37,508 nucleotides of DNA from Verrucomicrobiota bacterium (GCA_030605125.1 JAUWBD010000026.1:1-37508), one strand, 5' to 3'; shown: positions 16,801 to 26,450, counted from the stretch's first letter. Numbers and translations are program-made. The notes: generated by a model from the letters alone, not told the origin.

Positions 16801-17595
16801 CTGCTCGATATCCGACCGCTGATCGCGGGGCGCGGAGGCGGCGGGGGCGGGGCGGAGCGGCGTCCGCCGTATTTTTCCGTGGAGACGCCTCCGCTGGCCG
16901 ATTGGGAACTGGGCCTGCGGGTCGGCGGCGTGGAGTTTTTGCGCATGCGCACGCCGGTCTTCGAGGGCACGGGCTCGGCGCGTTTCGACCTTTCGGGCAC
17001 GCTCCGCGAGCCGCGCGCGGTGGGCGAGTTTTGGGTGGAGCGTGGCAACATCCTGTTTCCCTTCGCCACTTTCGCGGTGCAGGAGGGCGCGGTGCGGCTG
17101 CGCGCCAGCGATCCCTACACGCCGGTGCTGGACTTTCGCGCGGAAGGGCGGCGCCTGGGCTACGACTTGCGGCTGGAGCTGAACGGCACGGCGGACAATC
17201 CGCAGCTGCAGCTCACCTCGAGCCCGCCGCTCGAGGCGGAGACGGCCTTGCTGATGGTCACGGCCGGCACCTCGCCGGTCGAGGGCCGGGGGGCCTCGGG
17301 CACCCAACGGCTGGCGGCGGTGGGCGCCTATCTCGGGCGGGACGTGTTGCGCAGTCTCGGCTTTGGCGGCACGGACGAGGAGCGACTGGTCATCACCTCG
17401 GGGGAAAACGTGTCGAGGCAGGGGCGCGAGACCTACGGCTTCGAGTTTCGCCTCAACAACAAGTGGGCGCTGACCGGCGAATACGACGAGTTCGACGCCT
17501 ACAACGTGGGCGTTCGGCGGCGCTTCGAGGCGCGCTCCCCGGGCGGAGCGTCGCGTCCGGAACCGGAGGAAACAGCGGAGGGCGAGGCACGATGA
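13876..17595 (+). CDS. tamB: TamB-like translocation and assembly module protein (DUF490)
   Basis: TamB is an inner-membrane-anchored, periplasm-spanning beta-taco protein linked to outer-membrane protein assembly and to phospholipid transport. The 1239-residue protein has a single N-terminal membrane anchor (about 21-46). A very long Arg/Glu/Ala-rich repetitive beta region follows, and a C-terminal TamB domain from about 1000 onward, where SGTLREPRAVGEFWVERGNI, DFRAEGRRLGYDLRLELNG and LGFGGTDEERLVITSGENV are recognisable family features. A Shine-Dalgarno-like GGGGAG precedes ATG 13876. Its stop overlaps the tamA start (ATGA 17592-17595). In enterobacteria the order is tamA then tamB; here it is reversed. 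The long middle section is poorly conserved, so domain limits are approximate. Confidence 0.9.
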   Translation: MAEPATVEQTRKPRRGRAWRVLGWIAGALVLVLALAAATLDYWAPSLALRLGGVRAERSDTRLGREVVWESVSWRGDGLSLEARRLTISAPWHILRRGEVNAELGDWVLVVEERAADAPRPEREAGGAWEELVPTLRRVAEHLRSWVGEVELRDGVVRVAGEEIVVERVALWGDRFRARARARGQTVEAEGRLATTAAELRWEEGGVVVKAALDAARATVELRWTDNLATAEAEFAPREWMPARLRASGEDWTVPAERLGLGDAYAVVQGDFEVWGEGERLRAGLRAHATPRGDDFPEFRLELAGAGGRDEVRIERVELEAPQARARLSAPVEWRKGEGWSGEGQPDFSWEADLAALSGGAVGGRVQGAARWVPGAEDWSVRWNARGVGLTWDALPPTNLALRGESNAVATRITEATLSAADGSRAELRGRVVHATRMLEEGVLGARLRGTLLAPWLPEGARVEAVEAEGRAEGAWPALVVAAQARVSGVEHAGWAAEMIAADVAGTVGERLRGSLELRRGEAELRARFELGEGEARAEEFSWRRGEAERLRAVAPIFARWTGEARRVSAELAGAEGVMLRVHWEDGQVLRARLSSIETEWIADWRAEGAVPRLDVRVLEIESGLDPEGFLVGGARFEIGGELAGGPVWGRGSASLGHEGLRVDRLDAGRGDERLVEGAGLVPWRVRGRGERDFVPVQGREWSLRLESRAGAEWWDELAKAGDLNLLAPTLSLEVRGPARAPSGRAELGAERVGFEAEGLPAGGVELRGLAALAELTPDAITLRRLQATVDGQAIAAEARLPLRGEDWARLRGEPLAVLRERGEGRLRVPEAQVAALARYLPTMLAPQGTLAAELRLSPPLRVDGWLALEGAATRPLGSFGVLQEVDVRLALSDMDVRIERMRATAGGQELTVSGGARRRVEGEPLLDLAVKAERFPLVRRPGLLFRGDLDLTVKTDERNRTRVGGEVRLRDSLFLLDIRPLIAGRGGGGGGAERRPPYFSVETPPLADWELGLRVGGVEFLRMRTPVFEGTGSARFDLSGTLREPRAVGEFWVERGNILFPFATFAVQEGAVRLRASDPYTPVLDFRAEGRRLGYDLRLELNGTADNPQLQLTSSPPLEAETALLMVTAGTSPVEGRGASGTQRLAAVGAYLGRDVLRSLGFGGTDEERLVITSGENVSRQGRETYGFEFRLNNKWALTGEYDEFDAYNVGVRRRFEARSPGGASRPEPEETAEGEAR

Positions 17596-19667
17596 AACAG
17601 GCGCGGAAGATCATCGCGGTCGGACTCCTGCTGGCCTCGTCGGCGTGCGTGGCGGCCGATCTGAGCGTGCGCGGTTTCGGTTTGCTGAAAAACCGCGAGA
17701 TGGCGCAGACGGTGAAGCTGTTGCTGGGAGACGAGGACGGGCTCGGCACGGTGGACGCATCCCTGATCGAGGACGCGGCCCTGGTGTTGAATTCCGAACT
17801 GGTGGAGGACGGCTTTTTCGACGCCCGGGTGCGGGCGATCTGGACGGACACGGAGGGGCGGACGGGCGAGGCGGAGATCGACGCGGAGCTCAGCCAACCG
17901 CTGCCGCGTCCGCTCACGGTGCGCCGCCTGCGCCTGGAGGCGCTGCCGGGCACGAGGGCCGTGGTGGAGCAGGTGACGTTCGAGGGGCTGCGGTCCATGC
18001 CGATCAAGGAGGCCCGCGCCTATTTCCGGCCCGAGACGGGCCTGTTCACCCCCGACCGGGTGCGGGCCTGGTCGGAGGCCCGCGAGCGGCGGGCGGCCTC
18101 GCAGCTGCGAGACGTGCTGCGCTCGCGCGGCTTCGCGGAGGCGACCGTCGAGGTGGCGAGCACGAGCCTGGACCGGGAGACCGGCAAGGTGGCGCTCGTC
18201 GTCCGGGTGGCGGAGGGCCCGCGTTGGCGCGTGCGGGCCTGGCGGGCGGAGGTCGCGGACGGCGGCGAGCCGCTGGGCGGGGAGCCCGGCTGGCTGATGG
18301 GCGCGGCCTGGTCGCGCTCGCTGGCGCAGGATCTGGCGCAGGCGACGCGCAGCGCGTATCACTCTCGCGGATACGCCGACGCGCGCGTCTCGTGGACCGC
18401 GGAGCCGGGCGCGATCGACGAGGCGGGCGAGCGCGCGGTGACGGCGGTGGTGCGGATCGATCCCGGCGAGCCCTTCGTCATCGGCGACGTGCGGATAGAG
18501 GGCGCACGGCGCACGCGGCCCGAGCTGATGGAGACGCGGGCGCGGCTCGAGGAGGGCGCCCCGCACGATCCGGAAGAGATCGACGCGGCGCGGCTGCGGC
18601 TGGCGCGGCTGGGCGTTTTTCGCCGGGTGGACGCGGTCGGCGAGCCGGGCGCGGAGGCGGGGGAGCGCGACGTGGTGTTTCGCGTGGTGGAGGACCCTTC
18701 GTGGCGGGCCTCGTGGACGGTCGGCTACGGAAGCTACGAGCAGTTGCGCGGAGCGGTGGAACTCACGCGCGGCAACCTCTGGGGCCTGGCGCATCGCGAT
18801 CGCGTGTCGGTGGGGCAGTCGATGAAGGCCTCGCGAGCGGAGTATCGTTACACGGTGCCGACGCTGTTCGACGACACGGTGGAGGGCACGGCGCGTGTCT
18901 TCGGCCTGCGGCGCGAGGAGCCGTCCTTCACCCGGCTCGAGTATGGCGCGGGCGTGGAGCTGGCCCGCGAGATGCCGTGGATCGAGGCGCGGGGCACGGC
19001 GGGTCTCAGCTATGAGGTGCTGCGCGCGGACGACGTGGTGCTGGGCGAGGTGGCGGAGCTGGCGGACGACACGGTGGTGACGGCGCTTAATCTCGGGCTG
19101 ACGCGCGATCGTCGCGACAATCCGATCCGGCCGCGGACTGGCCAACGCTGGTCCATCCGATCGGAGACCGCGATTCCGGAGTTCGGCAGCGAGGTGCGTT
19201 ACCAACGGGTCGAGGCGGCTTGGTCCTGGCACGGCCGGGCGGGGAACGACCGCTGGGTGCACGCGGGGCTCTCGCATGGTTTCGTGGTCGGCGGAGCGAG
19301 CGACGTGCCGGTGAACCGTTTGTTTTTCCCGGGCGGCGAGAGTTCGATTCGCGGCTACTCGGAGGGCGAGGCCTCGCCGCGCGACGACGCGGGGCGCTTC
19401 ATCGGCGCGCGCAGCGTGTGGTTGTTGAACCTTGAACTGGAGCAACTCGTGACCGGGCGTTGGACGGCGGTGCTGTTCACCGACGTGGCGGGGCACGCGA
19501 CGGATTTCGCTAGCTGGCCGGGCAGCGAGGTGCTGGCCTCGGTGGGGTTGGGCATTCGTTACCAGTCGCCGATCGGGCCGCTGCGTTTCGAATACGGACG
19601 AAACATGAATCCGCGCGCCGGCGACCCGGGCGGGACTTTTCACTTCTCGATCGGCTTTCCGTTTTGA
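17592..19667 (+). CDS. tamA: TamA-like outer-membrane BamA-family protein (POTRA + barrel)
   Basis: TamA is an Omp85-family outer-membrane beta-barrel that partners TamB. The 691-residue protein has an N-terminal signal peptide (about 1-22), then POTRA-like periplasmic domains to about residue 370 (VRRLRLEALPGT, VIGDVRIEGARRTRPELM and RLARLGVFRRVDAV are visible POTRA patterns). A 16-strand-type barrel follows, ending with the terminal Phe of FHFSIGFPF. The barrel holds the family motif FFPGGESSIRGY (RGY in the lid loop). Cys19 could suggest a lipobox, but Ser rather than Leu sits at -3, so cleavage by signal peptidase I is preferred. The 3' end overlaps the convergent channel gene by 28 bp. 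Confidence 0.9.
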   Translation: MKQARKIIAVGLLLASSACVAADLSVRGFGLLKNREMAQTVKLLLGDEDGLGTVDASLIEDAALVLNSELVEDGFFDARVRAIWTDTEGRTGEAEIDAELSQPLPRPLTVRRLRLEALPGTRAVVEQVTFEGLRSMPIKEARAYFRPETGLFTPDRVRAWSEARERRAASQLRDVLRSRGFAEATVEVASTSLDRETGKVALVVRVAEGPRWRVRAWRAEVADGGEPLGGEPGWLMGAAWSRSLAQDLAQATRSAYHSRGYADARVSWTAEPGAIDEAGERAVTAVVRIDPGEPFVIGDVRIEGARRTRPELMETRARLEEGAPHDPEEIDAARLRLARLGVFRRVDAVGEPGAEAGERDVVFRVVEDPSWRASWTVGYGSYEQLRGAVELTRGNLWGLAHRDRVSVGQSMKASRAEYRYTVPTLFDDTVEGTARVFGLRREEPSFTRLEYGAGVELAREMPWIEARGTAGLSYEVLRADDVVLGEVAELADDTVVTALNLGLTRDRRDNPIRPRTGQRWSIRSETAIPEFGSEVRYQRVEAAWSWHGRAGNDRWVHAGLSHGFVVGGASDVPVNRLFFPGGESSIRGYSEGEASPRDDAGRFIGARSVWLLNLELEQLVTGRWTAVLFTDVAGHATDFASWPGSEVLASVGLGIRYQSPIGPLRFEYGRNMNPRAGDPGGTFHFSIGFPF

Positions 19668-20713: not shown

Positions 20714-21178
20714 ATGATTATCGCCGATCTTGCCAAGATTCCGGGCGGGACCTTTCCCGCGCAACGCTGGGGCCGCGGCCTCGTGGGCCAGGCCACCCAG
20801 CCGATCCAAGCCAAGGGCTTTTCCATGGGCTACTCGATCCTCGCGCCCAAGGGCGGCCAGGTGCCGTGGCACAACCAGGAGCAGGAGGAGGTTTACTTCA
20901 TCGTGCAGGGCGAGGGGCAGATCTGCGTGGACAACGAGTGCTCGCCGATCAAGGCCGGCCAGGCGGTCTATATGCCGCCGGGCAAGTTCCACCAGCTCAC
21001 CAACACCGGCGAGGAGCCGATGCACATGATCTATGTGTATTGCCCGGGTGGAGACGTGGCCCACTGGCGCGAGGAGCTCGCGGGCACCTTGCCGGTGGCG
21101 GGCACGGGCGCGATTCCGCCGCTGCCGCCGGGCGCCGAGCCGCAGTGGACCAAGGTCGAGCCGAAGCCGCTCGGGTGA
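20714..21178 (+). CDS. Cupin-domain protein, function unknown
   Basis: The 154-residue single-domain cupin has a conserved double-stranded beta-helix. Motif 1 reads WHNQEQEEVYFIVQGEG, in which the usual second His is Gln, and motif 2 is GQAVYMPPGKFHQLTN with its metal-ligand His. A C-terminal tail rich in Pro follows (IPPLPPGAEP). The metal site therefore may be modified relative to germin-type cupins. Cupins bind small metabolites or serve as isomerases or dioxygenases; no substrate can be inferred. The start ATG 20714 is preceded by a purine-rich GAGAGGG, one of the better ribosome sites here. It is divergent from the FNT channel and convergent with the 252-residue gene at 21211. Confidence 0.85.
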   Translation: MIIADLAKIPGGTFPAQRWGRGLVGQATQPIQAKGFSMGYSILAPKGGQVPWHNQEQEEVYFIVQGEGQICVDNECSPIKAGQAVYMPPGKFHQLTNTGEEPMHMIYVYCPGGDVAHWREELAGTLPVAGTGAIPPLPPGAEPQWTKVEPKPLG

Positions 21179-21210: not shown

Positions 21211-21969
21211 TCAACCGTAGCCGCGGGTCTCCGAGGGCTGCGGGACCATCGAGCCGAAGCCGCCCGCGCTGTTCCGGCGCAGGCCGGCCAGGATGAAGAG
21301 CCGGTGAAACAGGGATTTGTAGCGCGAGGGTGTTCGCACCCGCAGCGGCTCGGGCGGCGAGGGCAGGTCGCCGTGTTCGAGGTAGATGTCGAGGCCCGCC
21401 TCCTGCCAGCGCTTCAACACATGCGCCAGGTCGTCGGACGGGTCGCCCTTGCGCTGCTGCCAGAGGAGCACCACCGCGATGCCGTGCTCGCGGAGCTTGG
21501 CGGCGGAGGGGAAATCCTGCGGCAAAACCACCCAGCGGTTGTCGTAGGTGCCGGGCGAGGGGCGGACCGCGCCGAGGCGCCGTGAGTCGAGCAGGAATGC
21601 CGGCGGCGCGTCGGCGGGCAGGTCGATCTCGGAGAGCACGCGGCGGCCGGTGTGGAGGCCCTCGAGCACGTCGCGCACGGGCACCGCCGAGAGGCGATCA
21701 TGGGAGGTGTTGAACAAGGGCACGGGGCGGTAGCCGCGCCGCGCGAGTTGCAGGCCGCGCGTGACGGAGAGGCCGCCCGGCAGGTCGAGCACCATCACGG
21801 TGCGCCGGTCGAAGATCGGCAGCCAGGAGGCGTCCTCGACCGTGATGGGCGCGGGCTCCGGCGCCTCGACGAAGACCTTGTCGAGGTCGGCGAAGAGGGC
21901 GGGTTTGGCCCAGGCGGACCAAGGGCACCCGGGCGGGGCCCAGACGGCGAAAGTATGGCGGGCGTTCAT
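21211..21969 (-). CDS. Unrecognised 252-residue protein with GGFG tail; third gene of DUF350/ATP-grasp cassette
   Basis: I do not recognise this protein. It has no signal peptide or membrane helix and looks alpha/beta, with hydrophobic strand-like stretches (VMVLDLPGG near 58-66, IAVVLLW near 164-170). It carries three Pro-rich segments, and YKSLFHRLFILAGLRR at about 217-232 looks amphipathic. The C-terminus after residue 232 is low-complexity: NSAGGFGSMVPQPS, then ETRGYG. That tail has the look of a flexible, exposed tag. The start ATG 21969 overlaps the stop of the upstream ligase gene as ATGA, so the two are translated together. From memory, the E. coli GspS-neighbour YgiB also ends with a GGFG-containing tail; this comparison is not verified here. 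Confidence 0.78.
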   Translation of the reverse strand: MNARHTFAVWAPPGCPWSAWAKPALFADLDKVFVEAPEPAPITVEDASWLPIFDRRTVMVLDLPGGLSVTRGLQLARRGYRPVPLFNTSHDRLSAVPVRDVLEGLHTGRRVLSEIDLPADAPPAFLLDSRRLGAVRPSPGTYDNRWVVLPQDFPSAAKLREHGIAVVLLWQQRKGDPSDDLAHVLKRWQEAGLDIYLEHGDLPSPPEPLRVRTPSRYKSLFHRLFILAGLRRNSAGGFGSMVPQPSETRGYG

Positions 21970-23282
21970 GCGTGAAGGGGAAGGGCGGGGGAGGCTGAAA
22001 GAATCGGGGCGGCGGGAGTGGCGGCGGGCGCGGTCTCGCCCGGGGCGATCAGCACGGCGACGTCTTGCGCGTGGGAATCGATGATCGGGCGCGCGGCCAC
22101 GCGACCGTAGATGCCGGCGGCGCGGCCGTTGACGACATAGACGCCGAGGCAGGGAAAGCGCGGGCCCTCGTCGGTGGGCCAGGGCAGGGCGCTGAAGCGC
22201 CGCTGCGCCGCCCAGTGGCGCGAGTGGCGCCGCGCGGCGCGGCGGATCTTGGCGAGCTCGCGCGGCTCCGTCGCGCCGGCGAGGCCGATGCCTTCGCCGA
22301 CCCGGCCGAGCGCGGGCTTGAACACCCAGTCGTCGATCTCCGACCCCGGCACCTCGCGCGGATCGCGCGTCTCGGGCACGAGCGCCTCCCAAGTCGGCAG
22401 GCGAAGGCCGAGGCGGCGGCAGGCGAGCGGGAAGCGTTTTGATTGCGAGACGAGCGCGGAGACGGGATTGCACCGCGGCGTGCGGGTGCCGCGGACGAAG
22501 TTTTTCCAGCCGGAGAAGAAGCCCAGCTCCGGCAGCCATTCGCCGGGGTAAAAGCGAAAAATCGCGTCGAGCGGGCGGCCGTCGTGCGTGGTTGCGCGGC
22601 CCTCGCGCCAACGCACCGCGTCGGGCGCGAGCAACTCGGCCTCGAGCCCCGCGGCGGCGAGGCGGCGGGCGAGAAACACCATCACTTGGCGGTCGTCGGT
22701 GTAGGCCGTGGCGTGCACCAGCCCGACGCGTCCGCCGCGCGGAGCCGCCGCACCGAGCGCCGCCACGACCGCCTCGGCCGGATCGCCGGGAACGGTCGCG
22801 TCGGGAAAATGCGCGGCCATGGCCGCGGTGAAACCGCAGGCTTCGATGTAGCCGCCGGGCACGTCGCTGTTGACCTCGGAGACGCGCCAGCCCTCGCGCG
22901 TGTGGTGAAAGTCGAACCGCGAGACGCGCGGCGCAGCGCCGCCGGCCCCGGGGCTCTCGTCCGCCGTCGCGCCGACGCGGGTGAGCACGCGGCGCAGCGG
23001 GCCGGGCAGGCCGAGGTCGGCAAGCGCCGCGGCGGAGGCCTGCACCGCGGGCTCGGCGCCCAGCATCTCCCGATCCATCGCCTCCGCGAGCCGGGCGATC
23101 TGGCCCCAGGCTTCCGCGCGGAGCAGAAGCGGCGCGGGGTGCAGGACGGAAACGTCGCCCACCTGCGGATCCCATTTGCAGTGCTCGAAGATCGTGGTCT
23201 CGCGCACGGCGCGCCGCGCCTCCTCGGGAAGGGAGCGGCCGGGCGACCAGGGGCAGGGGGCTTCGTGGAGCATGTCGGCCAT
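21966..23282 (-). CDS. Glutathionylspermidine synthase-like ATP-grasp ligase
   Basis: This 438-residue ATP-grasp protein of the GspS C-terminal/YgiC/YjfC group is an amidoligase-type fold that would join a carboxylate to an amine at the cost of ATP. Recognisable segments are DFHHTREGWRVSEVNSDVPG (about 124-143), DAIFRFYPGEWLPELG (about 239-254), the nucleotide-binding WVFKPALGRVGEGIG with Lys322, and PCLGVYVVNGRAAGIYGR (about 377-394). The metal-binding segment after GIYGR reads differently from the usual R-E pattern, so activity should not be assumed. A Pro/Ala-rich tail follows from about 414. There is no amidase domain. ATG 23280-23282 overlaps the DUF350 stop (TGATG), and its own stop overlaps the next start. 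The substrate is unknown. Confidence 0.86.
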   Translation of the reverse strand: MADMLHEAPCPWSPGRSLPEEARRAVRETTIFEHCKWDPQVGDVSVLHPAPLLLRAEAWGQIARLAEAMDREMLGAEPAVQASAAALADLGLPGPLRRVLTRVGATADESPGAGGAAPRVSRFDFHHTREGWRVSEVNSDVPGGYIEACGFTAAMAAHFPDATVPGDPAEAVVAALGAAAPRGGRVGLVHATAYTDDRQVMVFLARRLAAAGLEAELLAPDAVRWREGRATTHDGRPLDAIFRFYPGEWLPELGFFSGWKNFVRGTRTPRCNPVSALVSQSKRFPLACRRLGLRLPTWEALVPETRDPREVPGSEIDDWVFKPALGRVGEGIGLAGATEPRELAKIRRAARRHSRHWAAQRRFSALPWPTDEGPRFPCLGVYVVNGRAAGIYGRVAARPIIDSHAQDVAVLIAPGETAPAATPAAPILSASPALPLHA

Positions 23283-24085
23283 CACCAGGCGCCGAGAAAA
23301 ATCAGCCACGCGGCGGCGAGGCCGAGCCAGAGCAGGGCGACGGAGAGCCCGCGGCCGGGATTGTCGCGCTCGGCGGTCGATGCGGGCGGGCGTCGGTTGG
23401 CCGCCGATTCGACGAGCGCCGCGAGCACCGTGAGCACGAGCGCGCCGGAGGCGGCTCCCACGAAGTCCCGCACCGTCGCGGCGGCGTTCACCCAGTCGCC
23501 CGCGGCCGCGCGGCCGGTGATGGCGCCCACGGCGACGAACCACGCCGCGACGCGCAGCCCCGCGGCGCGATCTCGCTCGACCACGATGGCCTCGCCCGCG
23601 CCGCCTAGCCGGTCGAGCAGCATCCACCCGAGGAGCAGGGCGCCGAGCGCGAGGCCGCCGCTGAAAACCACGACCCACCAGCCGGGCCCGTCGCCGATGT
23701 TGGCCCCGGCGAAGGCCAGCCCGATGCCGGGAATCGCGCCGGACAGGGCGATGCACGCGGCGGGGTTGCCCCGCTCCAGCGCGTCGTCGCGCAGACTGAG
23801 GCCCAGCCGGTCCAGCAGGACGAGTCCCAGCCCCAGCGCGGCGAGGGTCATGAGCAGGTAGAATCCGAGATAGAGCCCGCTGTCGCGCACGTCGTGGCTG
23901 GCGAACTTGGCCAAGATCGCAAACACCGCCGCCCCGCTCAGCGCCGTGGCGATTCCCGGCGCGTTCACGAACGGCCGGTCCGGGCGCAGGCGCCGGATGC
24001 TGAGGGCGAGGTAGGCCCAGACTCCCCAGGTCGCGCAGGCGACAAACGCGCAGAAAAGGCCGGCAAGAATCTCGTCGAGAGACAT
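23282..24085 (-). CDS. DUF350-repeat integral membrane protein
   Basis: The 267-residue multi-pass membrane protein, of about eight helices, is the first gene of the leftward cassette. Three spaced copies of an ER[DG][NR] sequence followed by a hydrophobic helix occur at residues 104, 170 and 239, a period of about 67 residues. This is how DUF350 (UPF0719, for example YjfL) looks, but the protein is roughly twice the usual length of about 130, so it is probably a tandem duplication. A poorly conserved hydrophilic linker (about 228-245) precedes the last helix. The function of DUF350 is not known; it is repeatedly found beside GspS-like ATP-grasp genes, as here. It is divergent from typA across a 177-bp gap. 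Confidence 0.85.
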   Translation of the reverse strand: MSLDEILAGLFCAFVACATWGVWAYLALSIRRLRPDRPFVNAPGIATALSGAAVFAILAKFASHDVRDSGLYLGFYLLMTLAALGLGLVLLDRLGLSLRDDALERGNPAACIALSGAIPGIGLAFAGANIGDGPGWWVVVFSGGLALGALLLGWMLLDRLGGAGEAIVVERDRAAGLRVAAWFVAVGAITGRAAAGDWVNAAATVRDFVGAASGALVLTVLAALVESAANRRPPASTAERDNPGRGLSVALLWLGLAAAWLIFLGAW

Positions 24086-24262
24086 CTACGCAGTTCAGCC
24101 GCGCCGTCTGTCCCGGCGCAATCGCGATCCGCCTCTCGTCCTTCGCCGCGAGATTAATGCAAAGTGATTCCCTCCTTGCCTCCGGGGCTTCGCGCCCGGC
24201 ACGCTCGACCTTTTTCCGAACAAAACACGCATCCGCCCGCCACCGCGCGCACTGTCACACAA

Positions 24263-26095
<1,833 letters not shown>

Positions 26096-26134
26096 CACCA
26101 CCGGGCGCTCGCCCGCATCCGCTCCGGCTCCCAT

Positions 26135-26161
26135 GGCCGCGCTCGTTCCCCGGGCGCGGCC
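26135..26161 (+). terminator. Probable intrinsic terminator after typA
   Basis: GGCCGCGCTCG (26135-26145) pairs with CGGGCGCGGCC (26151-26161) over 11 positions, one G-U, with a 5-nt loop. TTGTTG follows rather than a pure T run, so termination efficiency may be modest. Confidence 0.6.
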
Positions 26162-26450
26162 TTGTTGTGCCCGCTTGGCGCACGCGCCGCCCTCGGGAAA
26201 CCGCGCGCCGCCGCGCCGCCGAGCCATGACTTTCGGCGCCGATTTCCAGGCCACTTTGCCCTTGCCCGCGCCTTCGCGTCCGGGCGATTCTGACCCCTCG
26301 CGGTATTTTCTTTGGTCAGGCCGGTGACGCCGCGTCGCTCCCATCGGCCCTTCAATCGTCAGAAACCTTCAACCCAACGCGTCGCAAGGCGCGTCGCGGT
26401 TCGGCGTCATCTCCGGAGCGGGGCGGCGACGAAACGCATCCCGTCAAGTT
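26162..26450 (+). other. Gene-free leader region upstream of rpsA
   Basis: About 290 bp between the typA terminator and rpsA with no supportable gene on either strand. Three copies of GCGTCGC occur (26332-26338, 26379-26385, 26391-26397), the last two 12 bp apart in what should be the rpsA leader. No promoter elements stand out. A long untranslated leader is plausible, since S1 is translationally autoregulated in E. coli, but that is analogy only. No Shine-Dalgarno precedes the rpsA ATG. Confidence 0.4.

Follow-up and report, generated by a model that had tools for sequence, protein, structure and literature searches.

GspS attaches spermidine to glutathione through the C-terminal glycine of the tripeptide. 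Related ligases are found in two E. coli systems, YgiB-YgiC and YjfL-YjfM-YjfC. YgiC and YjfC reportedly attach spermidine to peptides (PMC12568646, citing Pederick 2023), YjfC is annotated in the database as a peptide--spermidine ligase, and we did not find the physiological substrate of these enzymes named in the literature. Moreover, GspS-like ATP-grasp ligases are joined with DUF350, DUF1190 and DUF2491 in the PspA-CesT/Tir operons described in the accessible part of PMC11237479. Here we analysed a three-gene cassette in a 37,508-nucleotide stretch of DNA from a Verrucomicrobiota bacterium (JAUWBD010000026.1:1-37508; the whole stretch is hereafter the window). The cassette is a YgiC/DUF1190-like system; what is new is an undescribed soluble carrier family, founded on a protein we call P0001, and a general rule for the C-terminal tail of the ligase partner. 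We put the probability that the cassette is a unit dedicated to amidating a protein C-terminus at roughly 0.6.

Both E. coli systems have the ligase fold and catalytic residues of the cassette and, likewise, an adjoining partner whose C-terminal tail contains GG[FY]G and, in their case, ends in GG; the yjf operon also contains DUF350, as does the cassette. However, P0001 is soluble and unrelated to DUF1190, unlike YgiB and YjfM, and the DUF350 protein is double the length of YjfL. The GspS-like ligase and DUF350 are also common to the PspA-CesT/Tir operons, as far as the accessible part of PMC11237479 describes them, but the cassette has only three genes, with no PspA, DUF2491, K+ channel or DUF1190. 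The GGFG tail goes unmentioned in that part of the paper, and full-text literature searches returned no mention of it, although it may have been mentioned earlier in Pederick 2023 or Iyer 2009.

The cassette comprises three minus-strand genes with overlapping ends at 21211-24085. These encode a DUF350 (YjfL-like) membrane protein of 267 aa (23282..24085; Pfam DUF350 1.9e-12, 47.9 bits against a cut-off of 26), a GspS/YgiC-like ATP-grasp amide ligase of 438 aa (21966..23282; Pfam GSP_synth 2.6e-17, 63.5 bits against a cut-off of 29.3) and P0001, of 252 aa (21211..21969). The original prediction, made from the sequence alone, that the three leftward genes are locked together was borne out, with TGATG at 23284-23280 between the DUF350 and ligase genes and ATGA at 21969-21966 between the ligase and P0001 genes. 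Upstream lies a divergent TypA-like gene (24164-26095, plus strand) and downstream a convergent cupin-like ORF (20714-21178, plus strand), and the cassette is therefore a stand-alone unit. One GSP_synth match and one P0001 are present in the window genome, and the gene order is found again in three phyla, which is beyond chance. Two long minus-strand ORFs elsewhere in the window, at 24095-26344 (749 aa, opposite the TypA-like gene) and 17499-19643 (714 aa, opposite a BamA/TamA-like gene), are probably products of high GC rather than genes. Searches for RNA elements, tRNAs and promoters yielded nothing informative.

On family, modelled fold, aligned residues and the lack of an amidase domain, we assign the ligase to the YgiC/YjfC type of acid-amine ligase within the GspS synthetase superfamily. 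GSP_synth is the sole Pfam domain above cut-off, so that the amidase half of true GspS is missing, as was predicted. An AF2 model built from seven cassette ligases (pLDDT 75, pTM 0.82) is closest to YjfC (7uk6; Z 30.6, 364 residues aligned, 3.8 A), YgiC (Z 29.0) and GspSA (Z ~28), compared with Z ~7 for RimK, and in this model a GspS-type ATP-grasp fold extends across the whole chain. Aligned to Gss, YgiC and YjfC of E. coli, the motif R122-x-D124 ... E136-x-N138, followed by DVPGG (22869..22919, minus strand), corresponds to R316, D318, E330 and N332 of GspS. Lys322 (22317..22319, minus strand), already assigned to the ATP-grasp core in the original prediction, aligns with K533, whilst Lys282 and Arg394 correspond to K498 and R598. 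Residues R122, D124, E136, N138, K282, K322 and R394 are all invariant in 32 ligases, and we take their Gss counterparts, from work on GspS, to be catalytic, ATP or Mg residues. The acidic pair E391/E392 of Gss is D196/D197 here. The cassette thus keeps the ATP-grasp half of E. coli Gss/GspSA without its amidase domain and adds a tailed partner, whereas gss, whose product acts on free glutathione, has no adjacent tailed protein. From YgiC and YjfC the ligase differs in falling within its own clade, marked by DVPGG where YgiC has DTPT, and in showing 13-15% identity to them in structure alignments. In one homologous cassette (L095:4599-5837) the ligase gene is interrupted by an in-frame stop with the rest intact, reflecting either an error in sequencing or a recent loss.

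In a maximum-likelihood tree with 75 ligases, the divergent, tail-less ones fall outside the rest (support 98). The inner clade splits into ligases whose tailed partners are lipoprotein-like and ligases of the P0001 type. Among the latter, those with GGFG are recovered with support 98 and a Planctomycetota sister group with GGSW/GGTW tails with support 100; partner type switches only four times on the tree. The ligase of the window nests among Planctomycetota sequences and close relatives of the window lack the cassette; therefore, it was probably gained by transfer.

P0001 had been singled out as unrecognised, and it has no match in Pfam or NCBIfam and nothing significant in a PDB sequence-profile search. 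Hydropathy finds neither a signal nor a transmembrane or other hydrophobic segment, Pfam gives no DUF1190 match for it or for nine homologues, and in an hhalign comparison with YjfM the tail alone aligns. With no Pfam match and no lipoprotein or transmembrane start, P0001 is, judged from its sequence, not a member of the DUF1190 (YgiB/YjfM) family. Comparison by hhalign likewise showed no relation to YjfK, YjfI or other operon neighbours. An AF2 model from 7 sequences reached a pLDDT of only 61, with no Foldseek match at E 0.001 and a best Z of 5.0, and a model of such low confidence does not establish a new fold.

Homologues of P0001 occur in the window's phylum, Clostridia and Planctomycetota (L002-L007, L040-L042, L072-L083, L092-L097), and no match was found on plasmids or in phages. 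A profile-HMM census identified 27 complete members (the window, L002-L005, L007, L040-L042, L072-L083 and L092-L097), each of which adjoins a ligase gene and ends in a GGFG tail. Mean column identity across the family is ~50%, with GGFG present in every complete sequence and conserved charged residues at D62, D128, R131, D143-N144-R145 and D180. It had been asked beforehand whether homologues always sit beside the ligase and always keep the tail, and the complete ones (27/27) do both. A family found mostly without a ligase would have counted against the idea; only three ligase-less copies were found and all are broken. One (L043) carries a frameshift and a stop in a genome with no GSP_synth or DUF350 match, and two (L098, L099) comprise C-terminal fragments only. 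We propose P0001 as the founder of an unnamed soluble family and the putative acceptor, or carrier, of the tail.

Relatives at the margin of the family are arranged differently. Planctomycetota P0001-like proteins (L085-L091) are apparently membrane-anchored, have GGSW/GGTW rather than GGFG and adjoin DTPT-type ligases. Two Bacillota loci (L059, L060) encode a tail-less P0001-like protein and, in a neighbouring gene, a separate small transmembrane protein whose tail carries GGYG or GGYS; P0001 proteins resemble a fusion of these two. The ligase ORF of L059 (4884-7526, 880 aa) contains two separate GSP_synth matches and is thus a tandem ligase, and that of L060 (5830-8301) has 823 aa.

The P0001 tail spans residues 232-252 (RNSAGGFGSMVPQPSETRGYG; 21214..21276, minus strand) or, written from residue 231, RRNSAGGFGSMVPQPSETRGYG (231-252). 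It is predicted to be disordered, yet GGFG is kept in all complete homologues, and in close pairs tail dN is not above body dN. Between GGFG and the C-terminus both the number of residues and their sequence vary. We propose to group as GGFG-tailed partners those proteins that are encoded beside a YgiC-clade ligase gene, contain [GS]G[FYIW]G or GG[ST]W in their last 45 residues and terminate in G, S or A. P0001 belongs here, with GGFG at 236-239, a terminal Gly252 and the ATGA overlap with the ligase gene.

The tail goes with the ligase and is not a trait of P0001. We fetched loci from the window's phylum, Bacillota and Planctomycetota by the Pfam ligase profile alone. In 11 window-phylum loci with classical YgiC-like ligases, the gene directly upstream encodes a secreted or lipoprotein-like protein that is unrelated to P0001 and ends in GGFG plus Ser/Gly, whilst Bacillota partners have SGFG, GGIG or GGYG. 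E. coli YjfM, which adjoins YjfC, ends in SRGGYGRSSSARGHWGG, and the same C-terminal motif is present on YgiB beside YgiC, where ygiBC is a plain pair of tail gene and ligase. Among loci chosen by ligase alone, the motif occurs in 15/15 from the window's phylum and 13/16 non-divergent Bacillota. Over the combined table, 63/68 YgiC-clade loci show the motif itself or a near variant, including GGYS (L060) and GGTR (L085) counted by eye, and 0/9 divergent ligases have a tail or DUF350 neighbour, both counts including loci found through P0001 itself. The five YgiC-clade exceptions are two partners with Ser/Gly tails lacking the motif (L064 and L066, Bacillota), one truncated contig, one unclear case and one partnerless ligase, the paralogue L065. 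Divergent GspS-like ligases without DUF350 or a tailed partner were seen at L105-L109 and L067-L070.

Further loci were read after the motif had been fixed. All three classical Planctomycetota ligases (L102-L104), where the tailed gene was seen by reading all frames, have partners with RGGFGSS tails. In annotated collections, 10 of 13 further loci from Proteobacteria, Actinomycetota, Cyanobacteriota and phages have the motif, counting Rhizobium QGFG, one letter off the set pattern, and phage DSS3_VP1, whose tailed gene starts the linear record and whose ligase is the last gene. The tails include GGWG in Vibrio, GGFG in Sphingomonas and Arthrobacter, SGFG in Trichormus, and GGFG in Ochrobactrum phage OC, Achromobacter phage Motura, Aeromonas phage phiAS4 and an Acinetobacter phage record. 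Two more are degenerate (GGL in Deinococcus, KGIG in Paenibacillus), and no tailed gene adjoins a divergent ligase from Azospirillum. The Arthrobacter partner (L113:1176-1679, WP_227897654.1) is labelled a tRNA-dihydrouridine synthase, apparently a misannotation. YgiC-like ligases occur in 136 phage-collection records; at L118, L119, L121, L122 and L123/L124 the ligase is accompanied by a small GGFG-tailed lipoprotein-like gene, and in phage Motura a homospermidine synthase lies in the same gene run.

For statistics the 62 partners were reduced to 39 clusters at 55% identity. The loose motif is present in the last 45 residues of 35/39 clusters, against a mean of 4.2 and a maximum of 12 in 2,000 composition-preserving shuffles, and strict GG[FY]G in 25/39 against 1.2. 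Control ORFs from the same loci (n=1,583) contain the loose motif 14 times and the strict one 5 times. Shuffles and control ORFs exclude the tail as a composition artefact. The last residue is G in 20 clusters, S in 16, A in 2 and H in 1; for a terminal G, S or A in at least 38/39 clusters p=3e-8, given a tail G+S+A of ~0.59, a value that serves as a guide since the clusters are not fully independent. Among the sequence data, this terminal constraint argues most strongly that the carboxylate itself is important.

The DUF350 protein has 7-8 hydrophobic segments by hydropathy, and its 267 aa compare with 132 aa in YjfL. Its gene is adjacent in 26/27 complete P0001 loci, the exception (L077) lying on a contig whose start falls within the ligase. 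However, 8 genomes with ligase and tail have no DUF350 match anywhere, ruling it out as an obligate partner. The earlier proposal that the membrane protein positions the reaction or transports the product therefore finds no support as a necessary role, and such a function would be accessory at most. DUF350 is a frequent accessory that is dispensable in other ligase-tail systems.

In the mechanism that we favour, the ligase would bind the flexible GGFG-containing tail of P0001, phosphorylate the Gly252 carboxylate with ATP and couple the activated carboxylate to an amine, of which a polyamine is the likeliest, to yield P0001-CO-NH-R. GGFG would serve for recognition and the small terminal residue as the reaction site, with P0001 taking the place of the DUF1190-type lipoproteins (YgiB/YjfM) that are tailed beside YgiC/YjfC. 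The tail is probably the acceptor, on the grounds of its linkage to the ligase, its conservation, its small last residue and the chemistry of the closest enzymes, and the idea is strengthened because the tail is common to unrelated partners of YgiC-type ligases. Of the prediction that P0001 is modified at its C-terminus, the linkage stands (ligase and tail in 27/27 complete homologues, the tail again on unrelated partners), whilst the acceptor role itself is still something we infer. Elsewhere, many carriers resemble exported lipoproteins, in which case ligation would need to happen before export.

A polyamine is our tentative choice of donor. Spermidine as a certain donor is unsupported: the only Spermine_synth match in the window genome is weak (best E 1.1e-4), with other cassette genomes varying, and neither NspC nor a clear spermidine synthase was found there. 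Spermidine would therefore need to be supplied from outside, unless another amine serves. A broader and rather doubtful extension is that GGFG-type tails serve, in bacteria and their phages, as a portable tag at the C-terminus, marking unrelated proteins (P0001 included) for ATP-dependent covalent conjugation of the carboxylate by YgiC-clade ligases, with a new amine, perhaps a membrane amine reached with DUF350, where a clear spermidine synthase is missing.

Co-location and a conserved tail are also compatible with non-covalent binding. The ligase might make a small polyamine-peptide or similar metabolite, with P0001 and the tailed lipoproteins unmodified and the tail a docking peptide that recruits or regulates it. 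The substrate of GspS and trypanothione synthetase is a free tripeptide, GGFG is more constant than the residues near the C-terminus, and the conserved charged residues of P0001 would suit an enzyme or ligand-binding domain. Nevertheless, a docking peptide needs neither the extreme C-terminus nor a G/S/A end (38/39 clusters), and no recurring cassette gene encodes a dedicated small-peptide substrate, so we regard this explanation as unlikely. It is quite improbable that the tail is instead a localisation or assembly signal, for sorting to the surface or a membrane complex, in a stress operon where ligase and tail have no contact. Many carriers are lipoprotein-like, and E. coli, Vibrio and Rhizobium partners belong to larger operons that also encode YjfK and DUF350, a kind linked to envelope stress in the accessible part of PMC11237479; but P0001 is tailed without a signal or transmembrane segment, and the tail accompanies the ligase without DUF350 and YjfK, including in E. 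coli ygiBC and phages. Lastly, RimK and similar ATP-grasp ligases lengthen protein C-termini and the amine donor of the cassette is putative, but YjfC/YgiC/GspSA (Z 28-31) match the fold far better than RimK does (Z ~7), leaving RimK-like addition of amino acids, rather than an amine, a very slim prospect.

Under the amidation reading, a tail common to several phyla and phages gives a candidate substrate and a probable reaction site for YgiC-type ligases. The P0001 family shows that the constant partner of the ligase is the tail and not the lipoprotein. The tail rule is thus a directly testable substrate code, in E. coli too.
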